Assembly: GCA_937872615.1 (NCBI GenBank)
Contig: CALMTT010000010.1
Span: 1-34,589 of the forward strand
Origin: an uncultured Verrucomicrobiaceae bacterium
Lineage (GTDB): Bacteria > Verrucomicrobiota > Verrucomicrobiia > Verrucomicrobiales > Verrucomicrobiaceae
DNA: 34,589 bases
Direction: 5' to 3'
The position numbers and the translations under genes were made by a program. Positions 8,770 to 30,900 of this stretch are shown here, in pieces. The number at the start of each line of letters is the position of its first letter. Position 1 is the first letter of the stretch. The notes below the pieces were generated by a model. The model was given only the letters and a program-made list of their open reading frames with translations, did no database searches and was not told the origin of the DNA.

Positions 8770-8777
8770 GGCCTCAA
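8766..8777. repeat. 12-bp palindrome containing both stop codons of convergent genes
   Basis: The sequence TTGAGGCCTCAA is a perfect palindrome. It contains the TGA (8767-8769) of the plus-strand DUF6263-like gene and the TGA of the minus-strand M23 gene (read from 8776 to 8774). With no loop and no T-run it is a poor terminator by itself. Confidence 0.5.
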
Positions 8778-9448
8778 AGCTTCGGCGCTGGTCCGAGATC
8801 TGCCGCGCCAGCACCACGATGCGCTTGGATGAAGGCTTCCGGCGCGAGACGATTCAGCGGCGTGTCGGCGTAACCTTCCGCAGGATTGATGTACGGCCCT
8901 TGCCGCACCTCAAAGTGCAGATGCGCCAGATACGCGCCCTCGCCTGTGCCCACCGTGCCGATCTTTTCACCACGCTGCACCACCTGGCCGGGCTTCACGT
9001 GGATCGCGTCGAGATGCGCATACATCGTCTGCACCACCGGACCCGCCTCATCACCGGCCGGCAGGCGATGCGCCACGATGATCATCTTTCCCCAACCGGA
9101 GCCAGGCATGCCGGTGTAAACCACACGTCCCATGCCCGCCGCGAAAACAGGATCGCCGAGGTCTGAATTCTCGCCGCCGATGCCATTCAAGTCATCGCCG
9201 AGGTGGCGTGAAATGCGGAAGGGCCGCGCGTTGTAGGTCATCGCTCCGTGTTGCGAGCCGAGCGGCATGTCAAAGCGCACCGCCAGCGGCAGCGTGACCA
9301 CTTCCTCCGGCGTGAGACGATGAAAAGCCGGATCAAACGGCACCGCGCCATCCCATCGCATGCCATGCGCACGCCACCACGCGAACCCCGCCGCGGCGGC
9401 GACGAGAACGAGGCTGAAAAAGATGGCGAAGGCGCGTGCGGAGGCCAT
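8774..9448 (-). CDS. M23-family (LytM-type) metallopeptidase, membrane-anchored
   Basis: 224 residues from the chosen start. A hydrophobic segment at 6-24 serves as signal or anchor, so the enzyme acts in the periplasm on peptidoglycan cross-bridges or stems. The zinc site of the M23 family is intact: HxxxD in RHLGDDLNG (His82, Asp86), YAHLD (His145) and HLHFEVR (His176, His178). In-frame ATGs upstream at 9460 and 9472 are possible starts; 9448 puts the signal sequence right at the N-terminus. The start codon lies inside a 20-bp palindrome shared with the divergent zinc-ribbon gene. The core HLGxDxNGxGGxxSDLGxP is shared with the second M23 protein at 18682-19521. Confidence 0.88.
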   Translation of the reverse strand: MASARAFAIFFSLVLVAAAAGFAWWRAHGMRWDGAVPFDPAFHRLTPEEVVTLPLAVRFDMPLGSQHGAMTYNARPFRISRHLGDDLNGIGGENSDLGDPVFAAGMGRVVYTGMPGSGWGKMIIVAHRLPAGDEAGPVVQTMYAHLDAIHVKPGQVVQRGEKIGTVGTGEGAYLAHLHFEVRQGPYINPAEGYADTPLNRLAPEAFIQAHRGAGAADLGPAPKL

Positions 9449-9463
9449 GCTGCGCAGCATGGC
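9444..9463. promoter_or_regulatory. Perfect 20-bp palindrome holding the start codons of two divergent genes
   Basis: GCCATGCTGCGCAGCATGGC is its own reverse complement. On the plus strand it contains ATG at 9447 and 9459; on the minus strand ATG at 9460 and 9448. The same hexapeptide MLRSMA is therefore encoded on both strands at the N-terminal ends of the zinc-ribbon and M23 proteins. It could be an operator for a dimeric regulator, a hairpin over the start codons of either mRNA, or chance; the sequence alone does not decide. Confidence 0.5.
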
Positions 9464-9764
9464 ACGCTTCAAACCTCCCGGTCAATGCCCCGCATGCGGC
9501 GAATGGGTCCCCAAAGGCCAGGCCGCCTGCGATGAGTGCGGCGCCTGCGATCGCTCCGGCTGGCGGAATCCCGACACTTCGGCCACTTACGATGGTCTCG
9601 ATCTTCCGGAGGACGGCTTTGACTACGATGACTTCATCGCCCGCGAATTCGGCGGCCAGCAAGACCACGTGAGCGGCAACCAACGCAGCCTGTGGTTCTG
9701 GGTCGGCATCGTGCTCGTCATCATCCTCGCCCTCGGCTTCCTCATGCCGCTGCTGCGAGGGTGA
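9459..9764 (+). CDS. Small zinc-ribbon protein with C-terminal membrane segment
   Basis: 101 residues. Five cysteines near the N-terminus (Cys10, 13, 24, 27, 30 in CPACGEW...CDECGAC) look like a zinc ribbon. An acidic, Tyr/Asp-rich linker follows (YDGLDLPEDGFDYDDF), then a hydrophobic segment at about 76-97 that would anchor it in the membrane with the ribbon in the cytoplasm. An alternative start at 9447 would add MLRS. Function unknown; ribbon-plus-anchor proteins of this size are usually annotated as hypothetical. It is divergent from the M23 gene with 10 bases between start codons and converges with bioB. Confidence 0.75.
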   Translation: MARFKPPGQCPACGEWVPKGQAACDECGACDRSGWRNPDTSATYDGLDLPEDGFDYDDFIAREFGGQQDHVSGNQRSLWFWVGIVLVIILALGFLMPLLRG

Positions 9765-9858: not shown

Positions 9859-10896
9859 CTACGCGCAGCTCGCCGCGGCGTGCTCTTCCTTGTGGCAGGA
9901 GTGATCGCAGCAGGGGCTGAGAGGCACGCCGTTCATGGCAGTAGGGGCTTCGAGATCGGGATTCGGCTCCAGCGGCATGAGGCCGAGATCGCGGAGGAGC
10001 TTCATGTCCTCGTTCGCACGCGGATTGGCGGCGGTGAGGAGCTTGTCGCCGTAGAAGATGGAGTTCGCACCGGCGAAGTAGGCCAGCGCCTGGGCCTCGC
10101 GGCTCAGGTTCGTGCGACCGGCGCTGAGGCGCACCTTGGCCTTCGGGATGGCGATGCGGGTGACGGCGATCATGCGGATGAAGGCGAAGGCATCGACGAC
10201 GTCGTTGTCACCCAGCGGCGTGCCTTTGATGGGCATCAGCGCATTGATCGGCACGCTCTCGGGCTGCGGATTGAAGTTCGAAATGACCTCCAGCATCTTC
10301 AGGCGGTCCTCGATGGTCTCGCCGAGGCCGAGGATGCCGCCGCAGCAGACGGACATGCCGGCGTCCTGCGCATGACGGATGGTGCGGAGACGATCTTCAA
10401 AGCTGTGCGTGCTGACGATGTTCGGATAATGCTCCGGTGAGGTGTCCACATTGTGGTTGTAGGCGGTCACACCGGCTTCCTTGAGGTCGGCAGCCTCTTC
10501 CGCGCCGAGTTCGCCAAGGGTGACGCAGACTTCCATGCCGAGCTTGGAAACGTCGCGCACGATGTCGAGCACCTGATCGAATTTTTGCGTGCCTTTGCGC
10601 ACGCCTTTCCAGGCGGCGCCCATGCAAAAGCGGGTGGAGCCGTTCGCCCGAGCGGCGAGAGCACGCTCCATGACCTGCTCCTTCGGCATCAGCTTCTCCG
10701 CCTGCACGCCGGTGGTGTAGCGGGCGCTCTGGGCGCAGTAGCCGCAGTCCTCGCTGCAGCCACCCGTCTTGATGCTCAGCAGGGTGCAAAGCTGCACCGC
10801 GTTGTCCGTCCAGTGCTCGTCATGCACGGCGCGGGCCTGCTTGAGGAGGTTGAAGAAGGGCTGGTGATAGATGCGGTGAAGCTCGGCAAAGGTCAT
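9859..10896 (-). CDS. bioB: Biotin synthase (BioB)
   Basis: 345 residues; radical-SAM enzyme that inserts sulfur into dethiobiotin, the last step of biotin synthesis. The SAM [4Fe-4S] motif is CSEDCGYC (Cys47, 51, 54). Other BioB signatures are present: YNHNVDTSPEHYPNI, CCGGILGLGET and VRLSAGRTNLS. The in-frame opening continues upstream to 10989, but ATG 10896 gives the standard N-terminus and avoids overlap with the divergent sigma-factor gene. Unusual is the C-terminal tail after the normal core, SPCCDHSCHKEEHAAASCA, with four cysteines and three histidines. Its partner bioA lies at 1128-2369 on the other strand. Confidence 0.95.
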   Translation of the reverse strand: MTFAELHRIYHQPFFNLLKQARAVHDEHWTDNAVQLCTLLSIKTGGCSEDCGYCAQSARYTTGVQAEKLMPKEQVMERALAARANGSTRFCMGAAWKGVRKGTQKFDQVLDIVRDVSKLGMEVCVTLGELGAEEAADLKEAGVTAYNHNVDTSPEHYPNIVSTHSFEDRLRTIRHAQDAGMSVCCGGILGLGETIEDRLKMLEVISNFNPQPESVPINALMPIKGTPLGDNDVVDAFAFIRMIAVTRIAIPKAKVRLSAGRTNLSREAQALAYFAGANSIFYGDKLLTAANPRANEDMKLLRDLGLMPLEPNPDLEAPTAMNGVPLSPCCDHSCHKEEHAAASCA

Positions 10897-10987
10897 GGCG
10901 GGGGAAAAGTGCGCCGGATACTTGGCGCAAACCGCCGGGATGCACGGGAAAAGATAGACAAACCCCGCGCCTGCATCCGTCTCTCCC

Positions 10988-11494
10988 ATGATGCCGCGCT
11001 CCAGCCAGCTCGAACGCCTTTACGACGCCCATGCCGCGGGTGTCTTCCACTACCTGCACGGCATCGTGCGGTCGGAGGCGGATGCGAAGGACCTGCTGCA
11101 GGAGCTTTTCATCAAACTCTCCCGCCTCGCCCTGCCCGCCGATCTCGAAAACGAACGCGCTTATCTCCTGCGCATCGCCCACCGCCTGGCCATCGACTGG
11201 CTGCGCCGACATGCCAGCCGTGAAAAGGCGGAGCAAACGCAGCCGCAGGCGCTTTTCGCCCCGCAGGATGATCCCGATGCCGACCGCTTCGCCCGTCGTG
11301 TTGAGGCCGCTTTGCACGAGTTGCCGCCGGAGCAGCGCAGCATCGCGGAGATGAAGCTGTGGCACGGCCTCACCTTCGAGCAGATCGCCGAGACGCAGCA
11401 GATCCCGCTGAACACCGCCGCCAGCCGTTACCGCTACGCCCTCGAAAAACTCCGCGGCCTGCTGAAGCCGCTCTACGACGAATTGAAGCCATGA
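10988..11494 (+). CDS. ECF-type RNA polymerase sigma factor (module 1)
   Basis: 168 residues with sigma region 2 (LYDAHAAGVFHYLHG, DAKDLLQELFIKL, then RIAHRLAIDWLRR) and region 4 (LPPEQRSIAEMKLWHGLTFEQIA...SRYRYALEKLRGLL). Regions 1 and 3 are absent, as usual for ECF sigma factors, which direct RNA polymerase to a small regulon and are held by an anti-sigma protein. The start could be the first or second of two tandem ATGs (10988 or 10991). Its stop overlaps the next ATG in an ATGA, so the small membrane gene downstream is translationally coupled and is the natural anti-sigma candidate. It is divergent from bioB with 91 bases between starts. Confidence 0.9.
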   Translation: MMPRSSQLERLYDAHAAGVFHYLHGIVRSEADAKDLLQELFIKLSRLALPADLENERAYLLRIAHRLAIDWLRRHASREKAEQTQPQALFAPQDDPDADRFARRVEAALHELPPEQRSIAEMKLWHGLTFEQIAETQQIPLNTAASRYRYALEKLRGLLKPLYDELKP

Positions 11495-11772
11495 AAACGC
11501 CCCCCGATGCCTTCGAGCATGATTTGGAACGTCTCGCCCTCCGCGAGCTGCCACCGCACTGGCGGCAGGAAATCCTCGCGCAGGCGCACAAGCCCCGTTT
11601 CGCCCCGCCGCGGCCTCTCGCCTTCGTTTTGGCCGCCGCGTGGATCATCATCCTCGCGTTGCAGATGCTCATGCCGGCACCGTCGAATGTGCCGCTCGCA
11701 CCGCATGCGCCCGTTTTCGCCCCCAGCAGCCTCTTTGCCCTCAATCACCACCTCGACCTCCTCCAGCCATGA
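11491..11772 (+). CDS. Small one-pass membrane protein, candidate anti-sigma factor (module 1)
   Basis: 93 residues. A cytoplasmic stretch of ~40 residues with DAFEHDLERLALRELPPHWR is followed by one hydrophobic segment (about 41-60, FVLAAAWIIILALQMLM) and a short outer tail. There is no HxxxCxxC zinc anti-sigma motif. The anti-sigma role is inferred from position: it lies between the sigma gene and a membrane protein, with ATGA overlaps at both ends. The second module has a similar protein with a matching segment, LRWRDPPPAFLKASLEAA here compared with LALRELPPHWRQEILAQA. Too short and divergent for a known family to be named. Confidence 0.7.
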   Translation: MKTPPDAFEHDLERLALRELPPHWRQEILAQAHKPRFAPPRPLAFVLAAAWIIILALQMLMPAPSNVPLAPHAPVFAPSSLFALNHHLDLLQP

Positions 11773-13238
11773 AACGCCTCTTCAGCCTCCGCGTGCTCGT
11801 TTGGACCCTCGCCAGCCTCGCCACGCTCTACGTCCTCGCCGTCACTCTCGAGAACTGGACCGGCGCACGCGCCCTCGCCGCCGCGAAGGAAAAAGTCGCG
11901 AACGAAGGTGAGAGCCTCGACTTCATGGCCCTCGTGCCGCCGCTGCCGTCCGAAGCGGAAAACTTCTGCGCCATCGAACCTCTCGCCGGACTCACGAATC
12001 CGAAAAACGAGCCTGCGCAGGCTTTGAAGGCGCTCGACTGGACCAAGTTGCAGGTTGGCGGCCTCAACTCGATCCAACTCGCTCAAGCGCCCGATTTGAA
12101 GCCGTGGATCCAGCACCTCGCGAAGAACGGCATTGGCAAAGCAGATGCCACGCCCGCCGAGATGCTCGCCGCGCTCGATGCTGCGCATCCGATGCTCAAA
12201 ATGCTGGCCGATGCCGCGCCGCAGCGTCGCGCGGCGCAGTTCACACCGCGGCTTGGCGACGGCCTCCAGGAGATGTCGTTTTTTGAATTGCCGATGCCGC
12301 ATTACAACCACGCCCAGCGCCTCGCCAAGGCTCTGCTGCTCCGTTGCAATCTCGCCATAGCCGCCGGAAACGCCGCCGAGGCCGTGCGCTGCATCCAGGC
12401 CTCGCTGCGCCTCGCCCACGGCTGCTTCCAAGACCCTGTCCTCATCGGTTTGCTCGTCGGCTCCACGATTCACGCCACCACGATGGATCGCGTTTGGGCA
12501 CTCCTGCATGCCCGCATCGCCACCGATGCCGAACTGAACATCCTGCGCGATGAACTCACCCGCCTCGACCTGCCCGGCTCGATGCTCCACGCCATGCGTG
12601 GTGAGCTCGCCGGTGCAGCGCAGACCTTTGAGATGCTCAAAGGGCGTCCTGAGATGCGCAGCGGTATGTTTGGTCTGGTTACCGACTCGGGTCCGAAACC
12701 CGGCGATCCTCAACCATGGTCTGCAAGGCTTCTCAACTTGGTGATTCCCTCAGGGCTTTTCGATCACTCGGAGGCTTTGCTCATTCAGCAGGAGCTAGAC
12801 TTGCTCATCGTTCCCATGAAACAGGGCGGTTATGTGAAGCTCAGCCCGAAGTTGAAAATCCTCGACGCATCCATCAGCGAGCATCGCAGGCTGACCAATC
12901 CGCATGGCTGGCTCGTCGGTCTCGTTTTGCCCACCTACAACAGCATCGTGCGCGGCGTCAGCGAATCCGAAACGCGTCGTCGCCAGGCCTTGGCAGCACT
13001 CGCCATCGAGTCCTTCCGACTCGCGAAAGGTTCTCCACCGGAGTCGCTTCCCGCCGGCATCCTTGATGTCATCGATGAAAAACCCATGCGCTATCGCGTC
13101 GAAGGCGGCGGCTACGTTTTGTGGTCCATCGCTCACGACGAGGAGGACGATGGCGGCAAGCTGCCAGGCAAGGATGAGAAGGTCAGAGATGCCAAATTCA
13201 CCGGCGACTGGGTGTGGCGCATGCCCACGGGCAATTGA
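11769..13238 (+). CDS. Membrane-anchored protein of a paralogous family (module 1 copy)
   Basis: 489 residues. One N-terminal transmembrane segment (about 9-26) is followed by ENWTGARALAAAKEKV, the counterpart of the QWENR/W..ARELK motif of the three module 2 paralogues. The long helical, probably extracytoplasmic, part includes LRCNLAIAAGNAAEAVRCIQ. The C-terminus ends in YRVEGGGYVLWSIAHDEEDD followed by GG and a final DWVWRMP. That ending recalls the C-terminal loop of pseudopilin-like proteins in this phylum (xLWSxGxDxxDDGG...DWxW). Function unknown. Coupled by ATGA to the small membrane gene. It is the most divergent of the four copies; the start at 11769 is fixed by that overlap and by the signal-anchor position. 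Confidence 0.8.
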   Translation: MKRLFSLRVLVWTLASLATLYVLAVTLENWTGARALAAAKEKVANEGESLDFMALVPPLPSEAENFCAIEPLAGLTNPKNEPAQALKALDWTKLQVGGLNSIQLAQAPDLKPWIQHLAKNGIGKADATPAEMLAALDAAHPMLKMLADAAPQRRAAQFTPRLGDGLQEMSFFELPMPHYNHAQRLAKALLLRCNLAIAAGNAAEAVRCIQASLRLAHGCFQDPVLIGLLVGSTIHATTMDRVWALLHARIATDAELNILRDELTRLDLPGSMLHAMRGELAGAAQTFEMLKGRPEMRSGMFGLVTDSGPKPGDPQPWSARLLNLVIPSGLFDHSEALLIQQELDLLIVPMKQGGYVKLSPKLKILDASISEHRRLTNPHGWLVGLVLPTYNSIVRGVSESETRRRQALAALAIESFRLAKGSPPESLPAGILDVIDEKPMRYRVEGGGYVLWSIAHDEEDDGGKLPGKDEKVRDAKFTGDWVWRMPTGN

Positions 13239-13294
13239 AACCGCGTTTAAATAAAACCGGCCAGCTCAAGCGTCGTCTGCCAAACTGAACGCGG

Positions 13295-13783
13295 ATGCCG
13301 CCCAGCGAAGCCACTCTTTCCCGACTCCATGCCGACCACGCCGTGAGCGTGTATCGCTTCGCGTGGTCGGTGACGAAGGACGAGTCGCTGGCGCAGGAGG
13401 TGGTGCAGGAATTGTTTTTGAAGCTCGCTCGCGATGCCGAGGCCCTCACCACCGCCCGCTCGGAGCGGGCGATGATCTTCACGATGGCGCGAAACCTCGC
13501 GCTGGATGCCTTGCGGCAGCGTCAGCGGCAGGAAAAGGCGCTGGAGGCCTGGGAGCAGGAGCAGCCGCCGGATTGGTTCGAGCCTGCGGCCGATCATGAA
13601 GCACTCATCGCCGCGCTCGCCGCATTGCCGGAGGAGCAGCGCAGCGTCGTGCACCTGCATGTGTGGGAGGACATGAGCTTTCGCGAGATCGGCAAGCTGC
13701 TCGGCCTGCCCACGCAAACCATCGCCAGCCGCTACCGCTATGCCTTGGACAAACTCCGCGCCCATTCACCCACCCTCGTATGA
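13295..13783 (+). CDS. ECF-type RNA polymerase sigma factor (module 2)
   Basis: 162 residues, paralogous to the module 1 sigma factor. Region 2 shows LHADHAVSVYRFAWSVTKDE, AQEVVQELFLKLARD and MARNLALDALRQR. Region 4 shows LPEEQRSVVHLHVWEDMSF, REIGKLLGLPTQTIASRYRY and ALDKLR. It begins 56 bases after module 1 ends; that gap is AT-richer (TTTAAATAAAA around 13247) and may hold its promoter, but no convincing hexamer pair was found. It ends in an ATGA overlap with the next small membrane gene. Confidence 0.9.
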   Translation: MPPSEATLSRLHADHAVSVYRFAWSVTKDESLAQEVVQELFLKLARDAEALTTARSERAMIFTMARNLALDALRQRQRQEKALEAWEQEQPPDWFEPAADHEALIAALAALPEEQRSVVHLHVWEDMSFREIGKLLGLPTQTIASRYRYALDKLRAHSPTLV

Positions 13784-14136
13784 ACCCGGACCCCGAACAA
13801 ACCCTGCGCACCCTCCGCTGGCGTGATCCACCGCCGGCGTTTTTAAAAGCGAGCTTGGAAGCGGCACTCGCCGAGTCGCGACAGCGTCGAAAACACCGCG
13901 TCATCGGCTGGCTCGCCTTCATCCCACGACCGCTGCGGCTGCCGCTGGCCGCGTGCTGGCTGCTCGCACTCTATTTCCGCCTCACCACGCCGGAGGCCAT
14001 CCCGCAAAGCACGCTCGAAAACTATGCCAAGCTGCCGCCCATGACACCGGCGCAGCTCATCGCCCATCGCGAAACCACCGAACGCCTCGCTCATGAACTC
14101 CTCGAACAACGCCACGGTCCGATCCCGCCGCTCTGA
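13780..14136 (+). CDS. Small one-pass membrane protein, candidate anti-sigma factor (module 2)
   Basis: 118 residues: a cytoplasmic N-terminus with EQTLRTLRWRDPPPAFLKA, a basic patch (ESRQRRKHR), one hydrophobic segment at about 47-66 (RLPLAACWLLALYFRL) and an outer region rich in charged residues (MTPAQLIAHRETTERLAHEL). Like its module 1 counterpart it lacks a zinc anti-sigma motif. Position and coupling to the sigma gene through ATGA support an anti-sigma role, which is inference. The stop is followed within 2 bases by a palindromic repeat that separates it from the next gene. Confidence 0.7.
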   Translation: MNPDPEQTLRTLRWRDPPPAFLKASLEAALAESRQRRKHRVIGWLAFIPRPLRLPLAACWLLALYFRLTTPEAIPQSTLENYAKLPPMTPAQLIAHRETTERLAHELLEQRHGPIPPL

Positions 14137-14137
14137 A

Positions 14138-14235
14138 GAAAGTGGAACAGGTTTTTAACCTGTTCATCCCCCGTCCGCTCATGCACGCAGCCTCCCCATC
14201 CCAACCGACAGGTTGCAAACCTGTCCCACTTTCTC
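14138..14235. repeat. Inverted pair of palindromic repeat units
   Basis: Left unit 14138-14165 contains GTGGAACAGGTTTTTAACCT; right unit 14207-14235, read on the minus strand, contains GTGGGACAGGTTTGCAACCT. The two agree at nearly every position over ~28 bases (both begin GAAAGTGG) and lie in opposite orientation 41 bases apart. Each is itself a near-palindrome (ACAGGTT...AACCTGT). The left unit starts right after the small membrane gene's stop; the right unit is inside the first codons of the next gene and is translated as PTGCKPVPLS. Looks like an interspersed repeat element; the number of genomic copies cannot be seen from here. Confidence 0.8.
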
Positions 14236-15701
14236 GCCGCTGGCTCCGTCAGCTGCTTTGGGCCTGCGTCTGCGTCATCTCGCTGCTCGTCGTCTATTAC
14301 CAATGGGAAAACCGTCACGGAGCCCGAGAGCTGGCTGAAATGCGCACGCAACTCTTCGCGCGGCTCCGCACTGATGACCCGCTTATGTTTTCACCGCCGA
14401 AGGTCAGCGACGACGAAAACGTCTTCGCCATCCCCGCTGTGGAAGCATGGGCGACGGAGCCCTTGGAGCCGGGCAGTGCCTTCAAGCAGTATCACATCCC
14501 CGAGGAGGCTTTTTGGCCCAAGAACATGCCGAGGCCCGAACTCATCGAAAACGAAGCGGACGGCACCTCACACATCGACTGGGCGAAATGGACCGGCGGA
14601 CGCGATTTGAAAGGCGAAACGCCCGCATTGGCCCTGAATCGGGCTTTGGGCGATCTCGATGGCTTGCTGCCGAAGCTCGCTCAGGGCCTCGACCGGCCGC
14701 TCGCATGCCTCAAACCGGGTCTGCGTGAATCCATGGAGGCAGCGAAGGGACAAATCTGGGATACGGTGATACCCAAAACAGGCTCCATCAACGCCCACCA
14801 ACGGGCCCTCGACCTGCATCTGCGTTGCGCTGCCTGCGCAGGTGATCAGGCGAAGGCACAGCAGCTCGCGATGATCAGCCTGCGCTTGTTCCCTGAGTCG
14901 GCGGCAGCGCACGGGTCATTGGTTTCCGCGCTGGTCGCCGTCGCTTCTCACAACATCGCCTTCGGAGGCTTGCAGGAGGCGCTTTCACAGCCCGTGTGGG
15001 ACGAGCGAGGCCTCACGCTGCTCCAAGCGCAGTTGGCGAAAGAGAACGATCTTCACTACATGGTGAGAGCGCTCGGCAGTGAAACACTGTGGATGCATGC
15101 CCAGTACATCCGTGGCAGGCAGCAGCGGCTCGACTGGCGCAGTGATGACATCCTGAGCCGGCTCTCGTCAGGAGACATGTATGAGCGCCTCATTCAATTT
15201 GCCATGGTCATGGGCCCCATCGGTTGGCATGACGCGGACTCGGCTAACCATCTGCACGCCATGCTCCTCCACATCGGCCCGGATGCCGAGGATGCCTGGC
15301 TTGACGCCGGCACACGCGGTCGTAAGGCGAAACAACTCTGTGAAAACGTCTTGTTCGCCATCGCAGGAGTGCCCGTGCCCAACCCCCGGCGCCTCATCGG
15401 CGGTGCCGCCATCCCCAACGTCGGCAACCTTCATGCCGCTGCCGCCGAAACCCTCTTCCACCGCCGCTGCCTCATCCTCGCCTGTGAATTGGAAAAGCAT
15501 CGCCTGCGTCACGGCGCGTATCCCGCCGCCTTGCCGATTCTCAGCGGCTTTGAAACGCACGACCCCGCCCGCCCGAAGCAACCTCCCGGCTACCGCCTCG
15601 AAAACGGTGGTTACCTGCTCTGGTCCGCCGGGCAGGATGCCAAGAATGATGGCGGCGTGACCGACAAAGACTGGCTCTGGCGCATGAAACGCAATCCATG
15701 A
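14181..15701 (+). CDS. Membrane-anchored protein of a paralogous family (module 2, copy 1)
   Basis: 506 residues from ATG 14181; a GTG at 14142 in the same frame lies inside the repeat unit and is less likely. One transmembrane segment (about 26-42, LLWACVCVISLLVVYYQ) is followed by WENRHGARELAEMR. Family landmarks: KVSDDENVFAIPAVEAW, ALNRALGDLDGLLPKLAQGL, GPIGWHDADS, IPNVGNLHAAAAETLFHRRC, CELEKHRLRHGAYPAALP and a C-terminus GGYLLWSAGQDAKNDGG...KDWLWRMKR. The first ~18 residues (MHAASPSQPTGCKPVPLS) derive partly from the repeat and replace the WYTFRxARWxFR leader of the two following copies. Function unknown; probably an extracytoplasmic protein controlled by the module 2 sigma factor. ATGA overlap with the next copy. 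Confidence 0.82.
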   Translation: MHAASPSQPTGCKPVPLSRRWLRQLLWACVCVISLLVVYYQWENRHGARELAEMRTQLFARLRTDDPLMFSPPKVSDDENVFAIPAVEAWATEPLEPGSAFKQYHIPEEAFWPKNMPRPELIENEADGTSHIDWAKWTGGRDLKGETPALALNRALGDLDGLLPKLAQGLDRPLACLKPGLRESMEAAKGQIWDTVIPKTGSINAHQRALDLHLRCAACAGDQAKAQQLAMISLRLFPESAAAHGSLVSALVAVASHNIAFGGLQEALSQPVWDERGLTLLQAQLAKENDLHYMVRALGSETLWMHAQYIRGRQQRLDWRSDDILSRLSSGDMYERLIQFAMVMGPIGWHDADSANHLHAMLLHIGPDAEDAWLDAGTRGRKAKQLCENVLFAIAGVPVPNPRRLIGGAAIPNVGNLHAAAAETLFHRRCLILACELEKHRLRHGAYPAALPILSGFETHDPARPKQPPGYRLENGGYLLWSAGQDAKNDGGVTDKDWLWRMKRNP

Positions 15702-17185
15702 ACACACAAACTTGGTACACGTTCCGCTTCGCACGCTGGCTCTTCCGGCTGGCTTGGAATCGCCATGTCGCGTTGAGCCTCATCACGCTCTCCTCGCTGC
15801 TCGTTGTCTATTACCAATGGGAGAATCGCCGCAGCGCACGCGAGCTTAAAGCTGCGCGTGAGCGCTTGCTCGCACGCATCGGCACCGAAAACTGGCTCGA
15901 CCTCGCGGCCCCCAGAGTGCCGGATGAGCAGAACTTTTTCGCACTGCCCGTCGTCGAGCAGTGGATGCACCGCGATGGAAAGCGAATCCGCTACGTCATC
16001 CCGAAAGGCGTGTTTTTGCCTGAAGGCTTCGTAAAGCCCGAAATCCTCGAAAACGAGACTGAGGGCACCTCCCGTGTCGATTTCGCCAGTTGGGCCAAAA
16101 ATCGTGATTGGAATGGCGAATCGCCCGCAGCCGCCCTGAACCGCGAACTCGGCGACGGCAACGGTTTGCTCCCGAAACTCACCGCAGGCCTCTCCCGGCC
16201 CTTTTCCGCCTGGAAACCGCACCAGCGCGACGAATTCATCGCCGCAGGGGCCAATCCATATGACGTGACACAACCCCACATCAGCAATGTGAACCAGCAC
16301 ATGCTCGATCTCGGCCTTCATCTCCGCGTCGCTGCTGCCGCAGGTGATTTGGAAAAGACACGCAACACCGCGCTCATCCTGCTGCGTCTCTTTCCTGAGT
16401 CCGCCACCTCACATCACGGGCTGGTCGGCTCGCTGGTGAGCACCGCTGCGCACGGAATCGCCTTTGAGGCGCTGCAAGACGCCCTCGGCCAACCCGCGTG
16501 GACCGTGGAAAGCCTCCGCGCCATCCAACTCCAGCTTGCCAAGATCAACGACCTCGAAGTGATCGAGCGTGCCATGAGCATGGAGACACTCACCGGCTAC
16601 GGCGTCGGTCTCTTCATCCGCGAAAGCTGCCGCAAAGACGGCCTCGCCGTCGAAATGCTCCACTTTGGCAATGAGAACGACTCCTGGCTCGCACGCCTTG
16701 GCAACCAAGCCACGCGCCTCGGCTACATCTACGGTCCCACCGGCTGGCACGACGCCAGCACCGCCTTCTATGTCGAGTGCTACCTCGACACGCTCGGCCC
16801 CGCAGGTGAAACCGAGTGGATGAGTGCCCCTGAACGTCAGGAAGCCATCAAAAGCCGCTACAAAGCCGAATACGTCCACAACGACTGGCTCCGCGACTGG
16901 AACATGCGCCGCAAAATCGGCCTGATGTCGATCCCCCGCGTCGGCAACCTCTTCCCTGCCGCCGCGGAAACGCTCTTTCACCGTCGCTGCCTCATCATCG
17001 CCTGCGAGTTGGAAAAGCATCGCCTCCGGCACGGCGCATATCCTGCAACGCTGCCCGTTCTCAGCGGCTTTGACACCCAAGACCCCGCCGCACCTTCCAA
17101 ACAGCCCGGCTACAAACTCGAAGCCACCGGCTACGTCCTCACCTCCGCGCAGGGCTGGCAATGGCGCATGAAACGCACGCTATGA
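15698..17185 (+). CDS. Membrane-anchored protein of a paralogous family (module 2, copy 2)
   Basis: 495 residues starting MNTQTWYTFRFARWLFR, then a transmembrane segment (about 27-43) and QWENRRSARELKAARERL. It shares with its neighbours VPDEQNFFALPVVEQW, ALNRELGDGNGLLPKLTAGL, ILLRLFPESATSHHGLVGSL, GPTGWHDASTAFYVE, IPRVGNLFPAAAETLFHRRC and CELEKHRLRHGAYPATLPVL. Unlike the other copies its C-terminal loop is shortened: after YVLTSAQ it goes directly to GWQWRMKR, without the DAKDDGG acidic-glycine segment. If that loop binds a metal or partner, this copy should have lost it. ATGA overlaps on both sides fix the start and show coupling. Function unknown. Confidence 0.82.
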   Translation: MNTQTWYTFRFARWLFRLAWNRHVALSLITLSSLLVVYYQWENRRSARELKAARERLLARIGTENWLDLAAPRVPDEQNFFALPVVEQWMHRDGKRIRYVIPKGVFLPEGFVKPEILENETEGTSRVDFASWAKNRDWNGESPAAALNRELGDGNGLLPKLTAGLSRPFSAWKPHQRDEFIAAGANPYDVTQPHISNVNQHMLDLGLHLRVAAAAGDLEKTRNTALILLRLFPESATSHHGLVGSLVSTAAHGIAFEALQDALGQPAWTVESLRAIQLQLAKINDLEVIERAMSMETLTGYGVGLFIRESCRKDGLAVEMLHFGNENDSWLARLGNQATRLGYIYGPTGWHDASTAFYVECYLDTLGPAGETEWMSAPERQEAIKSRYKAEYVHNDWLRDWNMRRKIGLMSIPRVGNLFPAAAETLFHRRCLIIACELEKHRLRHGAYPATLPVLSGFDTQDPAAPSKQPGYKLEATGYVLTSAQGWQWRMKRTL

Positions 17186-18675
17186 AAACCTGGTACACCT
17201 TCCGTCTTGCTCGCTGGATCTTTCGATTCGTGACGACTCGTCGCGTCGTGTGGACGCTCATCGTGTTGGTCTCCCTGATCACGGTGCTGTGGCAGTGGGA
17301 GAACTGGCGCAGTGCGCGTGAGTTGAAGGCCGTGCATCAGCGTGTGATCGAGCGACTGGGCACGGATGATCCGTTCGCTTTCATGCCGCCGAGCGTCACG
17401 GATGAGCAGAACTACTTCGCGAATCCCTTGATCGAATCGTGGCTGCATGAGACGAAGCCGGGAACGCTGGGCACGCACTACAAACCACCAGCCGACGTGC
17501 TGGTGCCGGAGGATTTCATCACTCCGGAGATTGTCGAGAGTGATGACGGCGGACCTGGCAGGCTCGATTTGAAAGCGTGGATGGCGAAACGGGCGGCTCC
17601 CGCAGGTGAGGACGCCGTGACAACGCTTTCTCGTGAACTGGCACAACATCAGGCCATGCTTCAAAAGCTCGCGGAGGGAGTGAACAAACCTTATTCCATC
17701 ATGAAACCCGGCCAGCGAGAGGCGACCGAGGCTGCAGGCGGCAATACGTGGGAGGCGGCGATTCCCCAGTTTAAAAATCTGAACCGTTTTCAGAAGCAGC
17801 TCGGCCTTCATCTGCGCAGCGCGGCGATGGTGGGAGACAACGAGAAGACCGCAATGACCGCTCAGATCATGCTGCGCTTCAGCGAGGCACCAGCACGCGG
17901 CGGCATCATCGGCATCCTGGTGCCGCTGGCACTGCATGAGATCACTTTTGATGCGCTGCACGAAGCGCTGGAGCATCCGGCGTGGACCGAAGAATCGCTG
18001 AGCCGTTTGCAGGTGAGGCTGGGGCAGTTTGACGAGCTGGAGAGCTATGAGAAATCGTTCGGCGGCGAGATCACAGGCATGTTTGCCGCGCTCACCTACT
18101 TCCGCCGTCATCCTGAGGTGGTGGAGCAACTGAATGTGTCCCAACCGGGCTGGCAAGGCTGGGTGGACCGGGCTTTCGAGTTCGCGATGATTCGTGGCCC
18201 CATCGGCTGGCATGATGCCAACATCGCGTTTTATGCAGACTGCATGGTGGAGCAGCTCGGACCTGCTGGAAAGGCCGCATGGCTCACTGCAGGAGCCCGT
18301 GATGAAAAAGTGCGACAACTTAGCAAAGAGGCCAATTCATGGCCGAATCCCCGTCGCATCCTCGGAGCCATCGCCATCCCAAATGTCGGAAACATTTCCC
18401 GGGTGGCCGCGGAGACGCTTTTCCATCGTCGCTGCCTCATCATCGCGTGTGGGTTGGAAAAGCACCGGCTGCGTCATGGGGCCTTTCCGGCTTCGTTGGA
18501 GGCGGTGAAGGAGGATTTGAAGCTCTTCACGCTCGATGATCCGGCACGTCCCGGCCATCTGCCGGGCTTCCGGCTTGAGAAGGGGGGCTACCTGCTCTGG
18601 TCTGCGGGGCCGGACGCGAAGGATGACGGCGGCGTGAAGGACAAGGACTGGCTTTGGCGGATGAAGCGCCCTTGA
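17182..18675 (+). CDS. Membrane-anchored protein of a paralogous family (module 2, copy 3)
   Basis: 497 residues, starting MKTWYTFRLARWIFRF, with a transmembrane segment (about 24-40) and QWENWRSARELKAVHQRVIE. Landmarks: SVTDEQNYFANPLIESW, HQAMLQKLAEGVNKPYSIMK, GPIGWHDANIAFYADCMVE, IPNVGNISRVAAETLFHRRC and the complete C-terminal loop GGYLLWSAGPDAKDDGGVKD then KDWLWRMKR. An in-frame ATG at 17161 would add seven residues and overlap the previous gene by 25 bases; 17182 is preferred because it gives the same leader as copy 2 and the ATGA junction found at the other overlaps. It ends 6 bases before the stop of the convergent M23 gene. Function unknown. Confidence 0.82.
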   Translation: MKTWYTFRLARWIFRFVTTRRVVWTLIVLVSLITVLWQWENWRSARELKAVHQRVIERLGTDDPFAFMPPSVTDEQNYFANPLIESWLHETKPGTLGTHYKPPADVLVPEDFITPEIVESDDGGPGRLDLKAWMAKRAAPAGEDAVTTLSRELAQHQAMLQKLAEGVNKPYSIMKPGQREATEAAGGNTWEAAIPQFKNLNRFQKQLGLHLRSAAMVGDNEKTAMTAQIMLRFSEAPARGGIIGILVPLALHEITFDALHEALEHPAWTEESLSRLQVRLGQFDELESYEKSFGGEITGMFAALTYFRRHPEVVEQLNVSQPGWQGWVDRAFEFAMIRGPIGWHDANIAFYADCMVEQLGPAGKAAWLTAGARDEKVRQLSKEANSWPNPRRILGAIAIPNVGNISRVAAETLFHRRCLIIACGLEKHRLRHGAFPASLEAVKEDLKLFTLDDPARPGHLPGFRLEKGGYLLWSAGPDAKDDGGVKDKDWLWRMKRP

Positions 18676-18681
18676 ACGGGC

Positions 18682-19521
18682 TTACTTCTTCTCCTCGGCG
18701 CCGGGTGTGACCTGGCCGTTGCGGATCTTCGCTTTGAGTCGTGACCAGAAATCGTCGTCTTCGGGGTTCAGCTCGGGCTGGCGGCCCTCGACGGGCTTGG
18801 TGTCGAGGCGGGGAATGGCCGGGGCCTTGGCGGCATCGGCGTCACTGCGGGAATCGGCGATGGAGCCGCCATATGCCGCGAAGTTGTTCACGGGCACGTC
18901 ATACTTCCGCGAATCGACGGCGAGCTTGCGGTGGGCGTTGATGAAGGCGGTGGGCGAGTAGTAAACGCTGTTGTCGCGAGGGAACTGGGAGCGGTTCATG
19001 CCCACGCGGAGGTCTTTGCGCATCTCAAAGTGCAGGTGGACGAAGTACATGCCGTTGTTCCCGCCCATCGTGCCGACGAGCTGGCCCCTTTCGACGAGGT
19101 CGTGCAGTTTCACGACACGTTGATGCAGGTGCGCGTAAAGCGAATCGACCATGGCCACGCGGCCATCGAGCTCGCGGTAGATGTGGCGGACGATGATGCA
19201 ATTCCCCCACCCGACGCCGATGTTTGCGGAAAAGATCACCACGCCACGGGCGCAGGCGTAAATGGGAGCGCCGAGATCGCTATCGCCACCGCCGTTGCCA
19301 TTCCAGTCCTCGCCGAGGTGGCCATTCGGGAAGTAGCCGCGGGCTTTGTGATAGCCGGCGGCATCCGGCTTGCCCACGGGGAAGTCGAAACCATCCGCCA
19401 GACGCACCCGGATGGTGCTGCCAGCCTGCGCAAAACCCTGCGTCGAAGCCGCGAGCAGGCACAGCAGGGCCAGCAGCAGTCGGAGGGCAGGTTGGAGGTT
19501 GGATTTGGCGAATTCGGTCAT
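18682..19521 (-). CDS. Secreted M23-family metallopeptidase
   Basis: 279 residues. A signal peptide (hydrophobic 12-29, cleavage near GFA-QA) directs it out of the cytoplasm. The M23 zinc site is intact: HxxxD in NGHLGEDWNG (His68, Asp72), YAHLHQ (His131) and HLHFEMRKD (His162, His164). The substrate is expected to be peptidoglycan peptide. The core matches the M23 protein at 8774-9448, including NGxGG, SDLGxP and GWGxxIIV. It differs by a C-terminal ~80-residue tail, charged and proline-rich (LDTKPVEGRQPELNPEDDDF), which may be a flexible linker or binding segment. Transcribed with the DUF1592-type gene upstream, 76 bases away, though a hairpin lies between them. Confidence 0.88.
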   Translation of the reverse strand: MTEFAKSNLQPALRLLLALLCLLAASTQGFAQAGSTIRVRLADGFDFPVGKPDAAGYHKARGYFPNGHLGEDWNGNGGGDSDLGAPIYACARGVVIFSANIGVGWGNCIIVRHIYRELDGRVAMVDSLYAHLHQRVVKLHDLVERGQLVGTMGGNNGMYFVHLHFEMRKDLRVGMNRSQFPRDNSVYYSPTAFINAHRKLAVDSRKYDVPVNNFAAYGGSIADSRSDADAAKAPAIPRLDTKPVEGRQPELNPEDDDFWSRLKAKIRNGQVTPGAEEKK

Positions 19522-24490: not shown

Positions 24491-24985
24491 ATGCTAATGA
24501 AGATATTGCGTCGCCACCGACTCTCCATCGCCGTAATTTTGATCACCCTCCAGGCCACATGGCAGGTGGTGCCCGCCGCCCGGGGAGCAACGATCGACTG
24601 GAGCGCTGGCAGCAGCGCTGATTTTGTATGGGGAAATGGCCTCAACTGGGCGGGGGGAGTGCCGACGGTGACGGGTGACGCAGTGTTTGTGTCCCCGATC
24701 CCGAATCCTGGAACGCTTCCGAACCCAAACATCGTCTTGCTTGGCGCGGCGAGCGTGGCCAACAGCCTGAATTTCCAAGACCGCTACACACTGACCGGTG
24801 GTGACCTCACGCTAACCAGTGGCGGTATTCGCGTTGATCTGGCCCAGACGGCAACCATTGCGTCCCAATTGACGGGCGGCAACGGCCTCAGCAAAACCGG
24901 GGGGCGGGACCTTGAGGCTGACGAACGTGCTGAACAATTACACTGGCATTACCAGCATTTCGAATGGCTCGATTGTGTTGAGTGA
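24491..24985 (+). CDS. PATR-repeat giant protein, N-terminal piece cut off by a frameshift
   Basis: As written, the frame from ATG 24491 (or the second ATG, 24497) stops at 24985 after 164 residues. It begins with a signal peptide (RRHRLSIAVILITLQATW, cleavage near ARG-A) and the usual head of PATR proteins, IDWSAGSSADFVWGNGLNWA then PTVTGDAVFV. Residues up to about 138 (GGNGLSKTGG) look native; the rest (RDLEADERAEQLHWHYQHFE) is out of frame. Removing one G from the run of six at 24899-24904 turns GGRDLEADERAE into GGTLRLTNVLNNYTG, the expected PATR motif, and joins the open frame that continues to the window end. So this is the start of the same gene as the next entry. Confidence 0.8.
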   Translation: MLMKILRRHRLSIAVILITLQATWQVVPAARGATIDWSAGSSADFVWGNGLNWAGGVPTVTGDAVFVSPIPNPGTLPNPNIVLLGAASVANSLNFQDRYTLTGGDLTLTSGGIRVDLAQTATIASQLTGGNGLSKTGGRDLEADERAEQLHWHYQHFEWLDCVE

Positions 24986-27900
24986 TCCTGCCGTGCTTGG
25001 CGCGGATACCTCCACCGTTTTGATCAGCGGATCGGCCACACGTGGCTTCGGTGGGGGCTCTCTCGTTCTGGCGGGCACCGACACCTCGGGTGTGAATTTC
25101 ACGCGGGCCATCAACGCCACCGGTTTGGGGCCGATCACGGATCGCGGCGCAGCGCTGGTGAGCGTGGGCTTAAACCAGCTTTCCGGGCAGGTGAGCATGG
25201 CCCAAGGGCTGGTGAACACGCGGTTTATCTCGTCGGCAGGCATGCTTTCATTCACAGGTGGTCTTGATGTGGCAGGGACTGCGGGAACGACGGTTTCTCA
25301 GTTCGGCGGTCTCAATACCGCCGGCGCTGGCGCTTATGCTATCACCGGCGCTCTCACAGGTGTCGGAACACTTGAAAAAACGGGTTCAGGGACACTGCTG
25401 CTGAAACCTTCAGACACTTCAGGATTCACCGGGACGCTCCGCGTGAGCAGCAGCGCGACCGGGGTGACGAGCTCTGTGCGAATCACGACACCGAATGTGC
25501 TCGGCACTCGCACCGCGACGGGGACGGGCGGCGTGCTCGATATCAACGGGGGCACGCTGGAGGTGCGCATGGACACCCCTTCTGTGCTAGCAGGAGGCGC
25601 TCCGGCGAATATTTACCATCGTGCGAACACCAGCACGATCTTCGTGGATCATGCTCCCGGAAGCAATGTGATCAACCAGGTGGTCACCTTCGGCCAGTTT
25701 GCGTTCGAGGAAAACCTGACCATGAACTTCAGCGGTCGCAACGGCTATGGGATCACCTTGGGAGCTGCCCCCGTCCAGGGCGGCACCGCCGCATCGACCA
25801 TCACCAACAACATGAATGGCACCCTTACCTTCACGGGCGCCTTTTGGAGCAATGCGGACACGTCCAGCCGCACCATGACGATCAACGGTGCTGGCAACAC
25901 GCTCATCTCGGGGAATTTCACCGCATCGAGCACGACGACGAACGTGGACCACAGCCTGACGAAGGCGGGCACGGGTACTTTGACGATCTCCAGCACGGGC
26001 GGCACTCTGGATGGACAGGTCAACATCAACGCTGGCACGCTGGCGATCGCCGACTTCCGCTCGGTGAACAATAGCGCGACGAACAATTCCGGGGCCGTGC
26101 CCTTTGCCATAAATATCGGCAGCTCAGGAACGGCTGGCACACTCAATATCGGAGTCACCGGAGTAACTCCTACAGGGGCTGGATTGACCTCGCAGCGCGC
26201 CATCAACCTCTCCGGCACCACAGGCGGTGCCACCATCAACGCCAGCCAGCCCGGCCTGAACCCTGTCATCATTGCGACCATGGGCACGACCGGGGCGGGA
26301 GCCAAGACGCTGACGCTGGGGGGCAGCAACACGGCAGACAATGCCATCAACGGCGTGATCGCTGACAACGGTGCGGTGACAATCGTGAAGACCGATCTAG
26401 GTACGTGGGTTCTGGGTGGCAACAACACCTACACCGGCACCACCACGATCAGCGGTGGCACGCTGAAACTGAAAGCGAGCGCAGCGGCCTCAAACATCAT
26501 CGCAAGCACTGGTGCGTTCACCTTCAATTCCAACGCAACCACACAGACCGCGGGTGGAACGCTCGAATTGGTCGGCCTGGCAGGTTCCAACGTCGTGGAG
26601 AGCCTCGGAGCGCTCACCCCCACCCAAGGCATGAACACGGTCAAAGTGACACCGGGCTCCGGTGGCACCGCATCCCTGACCTTCTCCTCCTTGGGAACCG
26701 TGGCAGGCACTGCCGCAGTGAATTTCATCACGCCAAATCCTGCGACCAATATCATTACATTGACGGGGCAGGCCACCACGACGGCTGCCACGCTGCCAGG
26801 CTCCGGAAGGTTGTACATCAACGGTTCCAACTTTGCGCGGATCAATGCCGGCCAGGTGGTCACCCCGGTTTACGGGACGGATGCTGGTTTTGTGAACGCG
26901 GGTGCCGCCTTGACGGCGAGCAGCCACAACCGTCTGGCCAGCAGCATCGCCTCCCAAGCGGCGGTGACAGTGAGTTCCTTGAAGATTGACGGCTCTCAGT
27001 CGCTCAACATGGCCGGCACCCTGACGGTCTCGCTCGGGGGAGTACTTCAGACGGATGGCAGTGGCGTGATTTCCGGCGCGGGCATCACCACGAGTTCCAA
27101 TGCGGCGTTTTCGGCCCGGGTGAATCTTCCGACGGATTCGCTCACGATCAGCGCTCCGATCTCCGGGACGACGGGCGGGTTGACCAAGACCGGTGCTGGC
27201 GTGCTGGTGCTCTCGGGGGCGAACGCACAAACGGGTGCCACCACGATTAATGAGGGCACCTTGAGGCTTTCGGGCGGGTTGGCCACGCTGAGCGGCGCAT
27301 CGCAGGACCTGACGATCCGCCAGGGGGCGGTGTTTGACCTCAATGGTGTGAGCACAGGCGCGACGATCAAGAATCTCATCGGCTCCGGCACCATCACCAA
27401 CGGTGTGGCTCCCAACGCCCCTGCAGCGGCGACTCTGACGGTCGGGAACGGCACACCTGCCGCGTCGACCTTTTCGGGTGTGATCCAGGATGGCACCGGC
27501 GGCCCACTGAGCATTGTGAAACGAGGCACAGTGGCCTTCACCTTCAGCGGCCTGAACACTTACACTGGCAGCACAACCATCGAATCAACAGGATCGATCA
27601 CCACGCCCACACTGGCGGATATCGGTCTGCCAAGCGGCATCGGCGCGGGTAGTGGCACGAGCAATGCCACCAACGCGGCCAGCCTTGTTTTCCAAGGACC
27701 TGGCACGAGCCCCACGCCCGCTCTGATCTACACGGGAGGCGCCTCGGTGAGCACCAACCGCCTATTCACCCTCGACATGGCCACGGCGGGATCGACCGCG
27801 GTGATCACGAACAACTCCACCAGCGGCTCCGCATTGATCTTCAGCAACACGAGCCCCATCGTTTTCGGCCCCAACGCCACCACATCCCAGACTCTGACGC

Positions 27901-30900
27901 TGAGCGGATCCTCTTCGGCTGACAGCGCTTTCTTTCCTCAGGTCACGGACAATGGGGCTCTCCCCACGAATCTGATCAAGGCCGGAGCAGGCCAGTGGAT
28001 TCTGGCGAACTCGGCCAATACCTACACTGGCACCACCGCCATCGCACAAGGGGTGCTCGTCGCGCAAGATGGGCAGGGCCTGCCAAGTGCGAGCGGGTTG
28101 CTTCTCGGGGCGACGACGACCAGCGGTGTGCTCCAGACCAGCGGCAACTTCACCCGAAACGTGGCCGCGGCCGCAGGTGCTGGCACGGTCACATGGAATG
28201 GAACCACGGGCGGCGGCGGTTTTGCCGCGTTCGACACGAAGCTGGTCGTGGCTTTGGGTGGCACAGGTTCGCCGACCCCTCTTCAGTGGGGAGTCGGCGG
28301 CTTTGTCGGCACGGGAGGTGTCCAGACGCTGTTCCTGAGCTCCACAACCGCGCTCGATGAGGTGGAATGGCGGAACGCCATTGATCTGAATGGCGGAACG
28401 AGGACCATCCAAGTGGATGACAATGGCAACACCGCCTCGGACTTTGCCACCATCACCGGGGTGATCAGCAACAGCTCCGGCACCGGGAATCTGACGAAGG
28501 CGGGCACTGGCATTCTCCAATTGTTTGGTGAGAACAGCTATGCCGGTAACACAAATGTGACGGCGGGAACCTTGGTGGTTAGCTCGCTCGGTCTGAGCAC
28601 CGGGCCGGTCACGAATACCAGCGTGGGTACCAGCACCGGAGCCGAGACACAGGCTCAGGCAGTGACCCTCGGCAATGGCACCACGACGGGAGGGATTCTC
28701 ATGTATGTGGGTGGTGGCGAGACAAGCGACCGCATGATTCGGCTCAACACGACGACAGCCGCGAACCAGATCCATGCGTCCGGCACCGGCCCCCTGATCT
28801 TGACAAACGTGCTCAATGACCTGGCCACCGGCGCAAAGGTGCTGAACCTCCGTGGCAGCAATGCTGAAGGAAACATGATCACCAGCCAGTTGACCGACAA
28901 TGGCGGCGCTCTCGGCATCACAGTGGACGGCAGCGCGGTCTGGATCCTTGCCAATGGCACCAACTCCTACACGGGCGTCACGACGGTCAGCGCGGGGGCG
29001 CTGGGCATCGGAGCCGACACCGCGCTGGGCACCGGGAGCATCACGCTGAGCAACAGCTCAGTTTTCGCCTACGGGGCTGACCGTGTCGTCGCGAACAACC
29101 TGACGCACAACAACAACACGACCCAGGCCTTCATCGGTGATTACTCACTCAGCTTCACCGGCACTTACGCGAATGCCTCCGCCGGGAACAGCAACACGAT
29201 CACGAACAACATCCTGGCAGGGAAGAGCCTCACGTTGAACAACGTGACGAACAACTCCATCACCGCCGCCCGCACGCTGACCTTCAATGGCGCTGGAGCC
29301 ACGGTCATCAACGGGGATTTCACCACTTCGACGGCGTTCAACATGAACCTGACCTATTCCGGCACAGGCAGCCTGACCTTGGGAGGCACGAACACGACGG
29401 GCAACGTGTTCAACGGGGGCACCATCACGTTGTCATCGGGCAGCCTGATCCTCGGCGCGAACGAGGTGCTGCCGGATATCGTGAGCAACTCGGCCAACAC
29501 CGGCAACGTGGTCATCAGCCCGGCTGCGGGCATCACCGCCACTCTGGACTTAAATGGTAGGACCGACACGATCAACGGTCTCACCGGCACGAGTGCGGGG
29601 ACTTTGATCATGGACAACAGTTCTGCCTCGGCTGCGACACTGACGGTGGGAGCAAACGATCAGGCGGCGAACTGGAACGGCAGCATCACCCGGTCGGGCG
29701 GCGGCGGTATTACGATTGGCAAAACCGGGGTAGGAGCGGCCACGTTTGCGGGTCCTGCGGACATCACGGCGATCAATGTGCAGTCGGGCCTGCTGAAATT
29801 CACTGGAGGAATCACCTCGCCTTCGCAGGTCACGAGCATCATCGTCGCGGGAGAAGGTCTCCTGCAGTTGTTTGACGGTGTTGGAACCCCGTTGTCGAAC
29901 CTAACCACTTTGAATCTTGGGGCTGGATCCGGCACGGCCACTCTCGAGCTTGATGCGGGTTTGACGACTGACACGCTCACCGCCACGACGGCCGCAGTGG
30001 TGGCCAATACCATCAAGTTCAATATCAGAGACGTCGGATTGAGCCCGGGCGGCACCTATTCGCTGCTCGTGGCACCCTCGGGCCTTGCGGCAGGTTCATA
30101 CACACTGGGGCCTATCGGGGGCTACACGGGCTCCACGTTGAACGTGACGGACACGCTGGTGCAGCTCACGCTCGGCACTGCGGTCTCCGGAGCCATGTAC
30201 TGGAATGGCGCGGGCTCGTCCTTGGAATGGAATCTGGTGGACGGTTTGGGGAACGGTCTCAATTGGGCCACCGACAAGGCTGGCACCGTCACTCCGGCAC
30301 CGACCATTCCGGGTGCGGGCACCAGCGTCGTCTTCCAGGCGGACAACGCTGTGGCCGCCGGGGTTGGTCTGCCGCTGGCGACGACCTTGGAACAGAGCGT
30401 GCGGATAAACAACCTCGTGGTCGAGACGGCAACTGCTCCGCTGACCGCGCTGAGCATCGGGCCCGGCGCTATTCCTACCAACCGGCTCACGATTCAACCC
30501 ATCTCTTCCGTGGATGGTATCGATATAAAAACCGGTGCCGCCCAAGGTGTTTTGATTTCATCGCAATTGGCAGCCGGTTCTGCCCAGACGTGGAACGTGG
30601 GGGATTTCAACAGCGTTGCCCTCACTGGCGGTGTGACCACCACCGGTTCGCCTACCGTGACTGTCGGCAGCACGGCGAGTCTCGTTCCCGGTATGCAAAT
30701 CGTCGGTCCTGGCATTCCCACCGGGGCAGTGATCACGCAGATCAACGGCGCGACGTCGTTCACCATGTCGGCTAATGCGACCGGGCAGAACGCGGCCCTG
30801 CAGAATTACACGGCCACATCGGCCCTCACGGCTTCTGGCGGCTTGTTTTGCTCCGGGAACATCACCAAAACCGGCTCTGGACGTGTGGTCCTCAGCGGTG

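Follow-up and report, generated by a model that had tools for sequence, protein, structure and literature searches.

The CnrYXH system of Cupriavidus metallidurans combines the gene of an ECF sigma factor (CnrH) with those of a small membrane anti-sigma factor that has a short cytosolic part (CnrY) and of a membrane-anchored periplasmic sensor (CnrX). CnrY belongs to the class II anti-sigma factors, and two of its helices wrap the sigma factor (PMC7406223). Class I (ASDI/zinc) systems are likewise encoded as a sigma gene followed by a membrane-protein gene and are autoregulated, the ASDI having an average length of 101 aa (PMC7406223). Of the 157 ECF groups, the majority have no member that has been studied experimentally (PMC8999054). 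Here we describe a cassette that recurs in Verrucomicrobiota, a conserved, unnamed genetic unit that is a variant of the ECF sigma/anti-sigma systems and whose third component is a protein of a kind that CnrYXH does not contain.

The window, i.e., the entire 34,589-nucleotide stretch of DNA that was analyzed, is contig C10 of the draft genome (6.8-Mb, 744 contigs) of a Prosthecobacter-like member of Verrucomicrobiota. Between positions 10956 and 18675, it holds two tandem cassettes, in each of which an ECF sigma gene is followed by the gene of a small protein with a single TM and by one (module 1) or three (module 2) genes for large proteins of ~490–510 aa (Table 1). A preliminary description of this DNA had read two such modules with the same gene order, and all eight genes are indeed present. 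It had also stated that ATGA overlaps join nearly all genes. This is the case for sigma1/small1, small1/large1, sigma2/small2, and large2/large3, and for large3/large4 only if the second ATG (17182) is the start of large4, but not for small2/large2, where a dispersed palindrome occupies the junction. This perfect palindrome, GAACAGGTTTTTAACCTGTTC, has 20 sites in the genome and 0 in the control. Because the overlapping start used by relatives (MNSSN...) runs into a stop at the palindrome, large2 must begin at either GTG 14142 or ATG 14181.

Table 1. Features of the two cassettes, in window coordinates.
Feature	Position	Strand	Remarks
P1, ECF-type promoter AGACAAA-N15-CGTC	10956..10981	+	9 bases before ATG 10991; boxes and spacing conserved
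sigma1, ECF sigma factor, 167 aa	10991..11494	+	ATG 10988 is an alternative start; Pfam, TIGR02937
small1, 93-aa single-TM protein, putative minimal anti-sigma factor	11491..11772	+	conserved cytosolic segment, then one TM; 4-base overlap with sigma1
large1, 489 aa; predicted signal anchor, periplasmic alpha-solenoid, and GspG-like C-terminal domain	11769..13238	+	
GspG-like domain of large1	12933..13235	+	
P2, ECF-type promoter AAATAAA-N15-CGTC	13249..13274	+	20 bases before sigma2
sigma2, ECF sigma factor, 162 aa	13295..13783	+	Pfam
small2, 118-aa single-TM protein, putative minimal anti-sigma factor	13780..14136	+	
Dispersed palindrome GAACAGGTTTTTAACCTGTTC	14145..14165	.	small2/large2 junction
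large2	14181..15701	+	ATG 14181; GTG 14142 is an alternative start
GspG-like domain of large2	15417..15698	+	
large3, 495 aa, C-terminal acidic loop lost	15698..17185	+	
GspG-like domain of large3, shortened	16937..17182	+	
large4	17182..18675	+	ATG 17182 in ATGA overlap; ATG 17161 is an alternative start
GspG-like domain of large4	18382..18672	+	own structure model; pseudopilin matches

Both sigma factors (162–168 aa) contain regions 2 and 4 only, above the Pfam cut-offs: Sigma70_r2 (2e-11) and Sigma70_r4_2 (5e-9) in sigma1, which also scores above the TIGR02937 cut-off, and Sigma70_r2 (9e-11) and Sigma70_r4 (1e-13) in sigma2. The two are 41% identical (z 19 against shuffles), the small proteins align weakly with each other (z 4.5), and the four large proteins share mutual identities of 26–47%. 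No family match was found for the small and large proteins of the window in Pfam or NCBIfam, no known family among PDB sequences, and no match to the anti-phage defence models of PADLOC. The closest homologues of module 2 occur, as far as the carriers are named, in Prosthecobacter and in Verrucomicrobiaceae MAGs. Genes for M23-family peptidases lie on either side of the modules (8774–9472 and 18682–19521, both on the minus strand), and a plus-strand ORF of >3,226 aa at 24912–34589, with repeats like those of autotransporter-type surface proteins, runs off the contig.

The small proteins of the family share a common layout, in which a cytosolic segment, LxxLxxRxLPxxWRxEIL (LRxxRWRDPPxxFL in the module-2 form), leads through a basic stretch into the single TM, after which there is a short tail that is not basic. 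The best-conserved part includes the cytosolic segment and not the periplasmic tail. A short cytosolic segment, a single hydrophobic stretch with a basic N-terminal side, and an adjoining ECF gene make up a class II-type layout, and the likeness to CnrYXH extends to the third protein, which would be membrane-anchored and face the periplasm in both cases. However, no sequence similarity was found between the small proteins of the window and any solved anti-sigma chain: a profile search of PDB sequences returned no anti-sigma chain, although the known classes share only ~3–11% identity (PMC7406223). No known domain, and no anti-sigma domain in particular, was detected in the small protein. The comparison with CnrY is one of kind (size and layout), and homology is not implied. 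CnrYXH also differs in that the third protein of the cassette is ~490 aa long, combines a predicted solenoid with a GspG-like domain, and is often present in several copies, and in that no metal or efflux genes lie near the modules of the window. The resemblance to class I systems stops at gene order and autoregulation, since the cytosolic part of the small proteins is shorter than a typical ASDI and the Hx3Cx2C motif of the zinc anti-sigma factors (ASDI/ZAS) is absent, small1 having no cysteine and small2 a single one in its TM. By analogy with CnrY, we regard the small protein as a putative membrane anti-sigma factor of class II type and minimal size. In the genome of the window, small1 and small2 are the only members of their family, and the other ECF genes are followed by different membrane proteins.

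A dispersed element of ~95 bases, with 23 matches in the genome of the window, lies in frame inside small2 of five relative loci (L035, L037 at L037:7665-7769, L038, L039, and L042), between the cytosolic segment and the TM. Its insertion in several relatives suggests that this stretch of small2 is a tolerant linker.

The cassette is not confined to the window. When a profile of the large proteins was run on the same genome and on relatives from the same genus and order, matches were obtained in 35 of 56 genomes, and longer stretches around 40 loci were examined for their neighborhood. A sigma gene lies directly upstream on the same strand at 33 of these 40 loci; the other seven are L046, L066–L068, L070, L071 (where the sigma gene is divergent), and L072. 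Between sigma and large genes there is a small single-TM ORF, which nearly always starts four bases before the sigma stop, mostly as a 4-base overlap. In a sample of 387 genomes from across the phylum, 110 have a match of the large type, often to the C-terminal domain only; 13 of 29 loci from this sample have a sigma gene upstream within the 1.5 kb examined, and in most of these a similar small ORF follows it. Dozens of genomes share this arrangement down to the 4-base overlap between sigma and small genes, which is far above chance, and the system spans Verrucomicrobiota rather than being "lineage-specific" as first described. Homologues of the large proteins might nonetheless have lain mostly away from sigma genes, which the preliminary description regarded as fatal to its proposal. 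This is not so among close relatives. In the phylum sample, many distant homologues have no sigma gene within 1.5 kb. Orphans also occur within the genus, where no fewer than four genomes (L066, L075, L077, and L078) carry a large homologue without a sigma gene, downstream of a short-chain dehydrogenase-like gene. A literature search, which did not extend to the published lists of ECF groups, found no paper on the cassette; its sigma factors may already carry an ECF group number.

Trees of the sigma factors and of the large proteins contain identical clades, a (module 2), b (module 1), c, and d, each forming a single group in both. Each sigma factor has therefore been inherited along with its own large protein. 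In both trees, modules 1 and 2 belong to separate, old clades, so that they are old relatives that now stand in tandem rather than products of a recent tandem duplication, and the trees do not support a co-duplication of the two modules. The tandem pair occurs in the window and in one sampled relative, G029. In clade a, the large gene is present in 1–3 copies per operon, and module 2 has amplified it. Comparison of the window with G029 gives identities of 93 and 87% for the sigma factors, 86 and 81% for the small proteins, and 70–72% for the large proteins.

An ECF-type promoter precedes the sigma gene in nearly all of these loci. The consensus A-N-A-Y-AAA, followed after exactly 15 bases by CGTC, is found 9–32 bases before the sigma ATG in 33 of 37 upstream regions, where 0.006 would be expected by chance from shuffled upstreams. 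CGTC is a typical ECF −10 element. The first box reads AAATAAA in clade a (once AGATAAA) and AGACAAA in clades b, c, and d; the spacer sequence varies between clades, whereas the boxes and their spacing are constant. The exact motif also occurs at five more distant loci (L076, L079, L083, L087, and L088), some of them in other families of the phylum, and L073 has the same motif with a spacer of 14. A promoter of its own precedes module 2, within the 56 bases between large1 and sigma2, and no sigma-70-type promoter was found across 10850–18900. As P1 lies very close to the ATG, the mRNA of module 1 may be nearly leaderless.

The promoter pattern is not in excess elsewhere, either in the genome of the window (10 matches versus 12 for a reversed control) or across the genus, where 34 genomes gave about 260 matches versus 387, with the reservations that a pattern this short and degenerate can miss other targets and that the reversed control is imperfect in composition. 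Matches that fall on the beginning of an rpoA-like gene and across that of a pilin-like gene look like chance. Taken together, the fixed-spacing promoter before each sigma gene and the lack of a genome-wide excess indicate that each sigma factor most likely transcribes mainly its own operon. The simplest reading of these patterns would be autoregulation with a very small regulon, although a wider one may lie behind degenerate promoters. The initial proposal that a sigma factor controls its own membrane-protein operon is thus borne out, insofar as the conserved promoter and the sigma gene upstream at most loci can indicate it. At 13 clade-c loci (e.g., L050 and L052), a conserved palindrome, ATTACAAGGGTAAT, with minor variants, lies ~100 bases upstream of the sigma gene, before the ECF promoter, and is perhaps an operator for a second regulator.

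The large proteins were analyzed through structure models of large4. The model of its 504-aa form (pLDDT 89.8, pTM 0.87) begins with an anchor helix at the N-terminus, continues as an alpha-solenoid, and closes with a C-terminal domain. A fold search with the whole model was uninformative, returning generic helical repeats only; its top row, the anti-sigma factor DdvA, was not significant (E 0.14, probability 0.09). In contrast to the whole protein, the C-terminal domain modelled alone (pLDDT 90.9) gave a coherent answer: pilins or pseudopilins fill the best fifteen rows of the fold search, E. coli GspG being matched with Z 9.7 over 87 of 97 residues at 2.4 Å, and Z has dropped to 3.2 by the first unrelated row. 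The top eight rows of a Foldseek search are also all pseudopilins or pilins, with weak E-values. Profile–profile comparison with the genome's own pseudopilins gave a probability of 96.6% (E 6e-10), and that with GspG (2kep) an E of 0.0036. Pfam T2SSG (PF08334) matches 6 of 30 C-terminal domains weakly (best 1e-5) and none of the large proteins of the window. According to the models and profiles, then, the C-terminal ~97 residues have the fold of the major pseudopilin GspG, including the long α1 helix and the C-terminal three-strand β sheet. The domain differs from GspG/T2SSG in forming the C-terminal end of a helical protein and in lacking the GFTLxE prepilin site. Indeed, the prepilin peptidase site G-F-T/S-L-x-E is absent from the N-termini of the large proteins and present in three of the genome's own T2SSG loci, and the large proteins are therefore not pseudopilins. 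Elsewhere in the genome, at G000:C233:21481-21681 (-) (L151), a 683-aa open frame matches only the GspG-like part, so this module is common to other proteins too.

The C-terminal signature noted in the preliminary description turns out to be part of the GspG-like domain, but it is not shared by all four proteins: large3 lacks the "xDxxDDGG" part and ends in ...YVLTSAQGWQWRM. The acidic loop of the domain is gone in large3 and in its two orthologues from G011 and G029, which makes them a natural test of its role. From the charge pattern and the single anchor, the N-terminus of the large proteins is predicted to be inside and their bulk periplasmic. The cell-envelope system originally suggested is in keeping with this predicted location, but a cell-envelope function is not supported.

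We propose that each module works as an ECF sigma circuit that is nearly complete in itself, and we put the probability of this explanation as a whole at roughly 50%. The sigma factor would transcribe its own operon from AGACAAA/AAATAAA-N15-CGTC, a step for which conservation provides strong support. Through its ATGA-overlapping gene, the small protein would be made in a fixed proportion and reside in the inner membrane, where its cytosolic segment of ~40–60 residues may bind the sigma factor and keep it inactive, as CnrY does with CnrH. A signal in the periplasm or envelope would then free the sigma factor and raise expression of the operon, and with it the level of the large protein. The main product would be this large protein, an inner-membrane-anchored periplasmic solenoid with a GspG-like domain that probably serves as an envelope scaffold or binding protein and may feed back on the small protein. 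That the large protein is probably the effector is suggested by its homologues without sigma genes and by its one to three copies per operon.

The main alternative to the large protein as effector is that it acts as a sensor, like CnrX or RseB, controlling the hold of the small protein on the sigma factor, whose true targets would lie elsewhere behind degenerate promoters. We consider this possible but doubtful. The gene types and the membrane layout are those of systems with a sigma factor, a mini anti-sigma factor, and an anchored periplasmic sensor, such as CnrYXH, and the large protein is the fastest-evolving part of the cassette, although its faster evolution relative to the sigma factor fits an effector equally well. 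However, a sensor with distant targets does not readily account for the absence of a motif excess in the genomes scanned, for large genes that occur without any sigma gene, or for the fact that as many as three large paralogues can follow a single sigma gene.

It is improbable that the small protein instead assists the large protein, as its partner in the membrane or as a factor in its assembly, with sigma activity set by the sigma factor's own level and other inputs. The lack of a detectable anti-sigma domain would agree with such a role, and the second palindrome upstream of the clade c operons could represent another input, but it is the cytosolic segment rather than the periplasmic tail that falls within the best-conserved part of the small protein, and the small gene is coupled in translation to the sigma gene and not only to the large gene. 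Finally, an accidental grouping of neighboring genes with no functional link, for which one could cite the large homologues that stand alone, is hardly credible given the phylum-wide recurrence, the matched trees, and the fixed promoter.

A further reading, which we regard as quite unlikely, is that the phylum-wide sigma circuit serves a single kind of product, a solenoid protein that would present its GspG-like domain in the periplasm and dock on, cap, or mimic an assembly of the pseudopilus or type IV pilus-like kind, on which the mini anti-sigma factor would report. If true, this would constitute a new link between ECF signalling and pilus or secretion machinery in Verrucomicrobiota. The large proteins themselves represent a family for which neither Pfam nor NCBIfam has an entry. 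It is unusual for a predicted alpha-solenoid to be fused to a GspG-like domain and to stand under a dedicated sigma factor, and this combination suggests a role at the envelope. In a phylum that has been little studied, the cassette offers a compact circuit that can be tested and whose promoter, regulator, putative inhibitor, and product are each located to the base.
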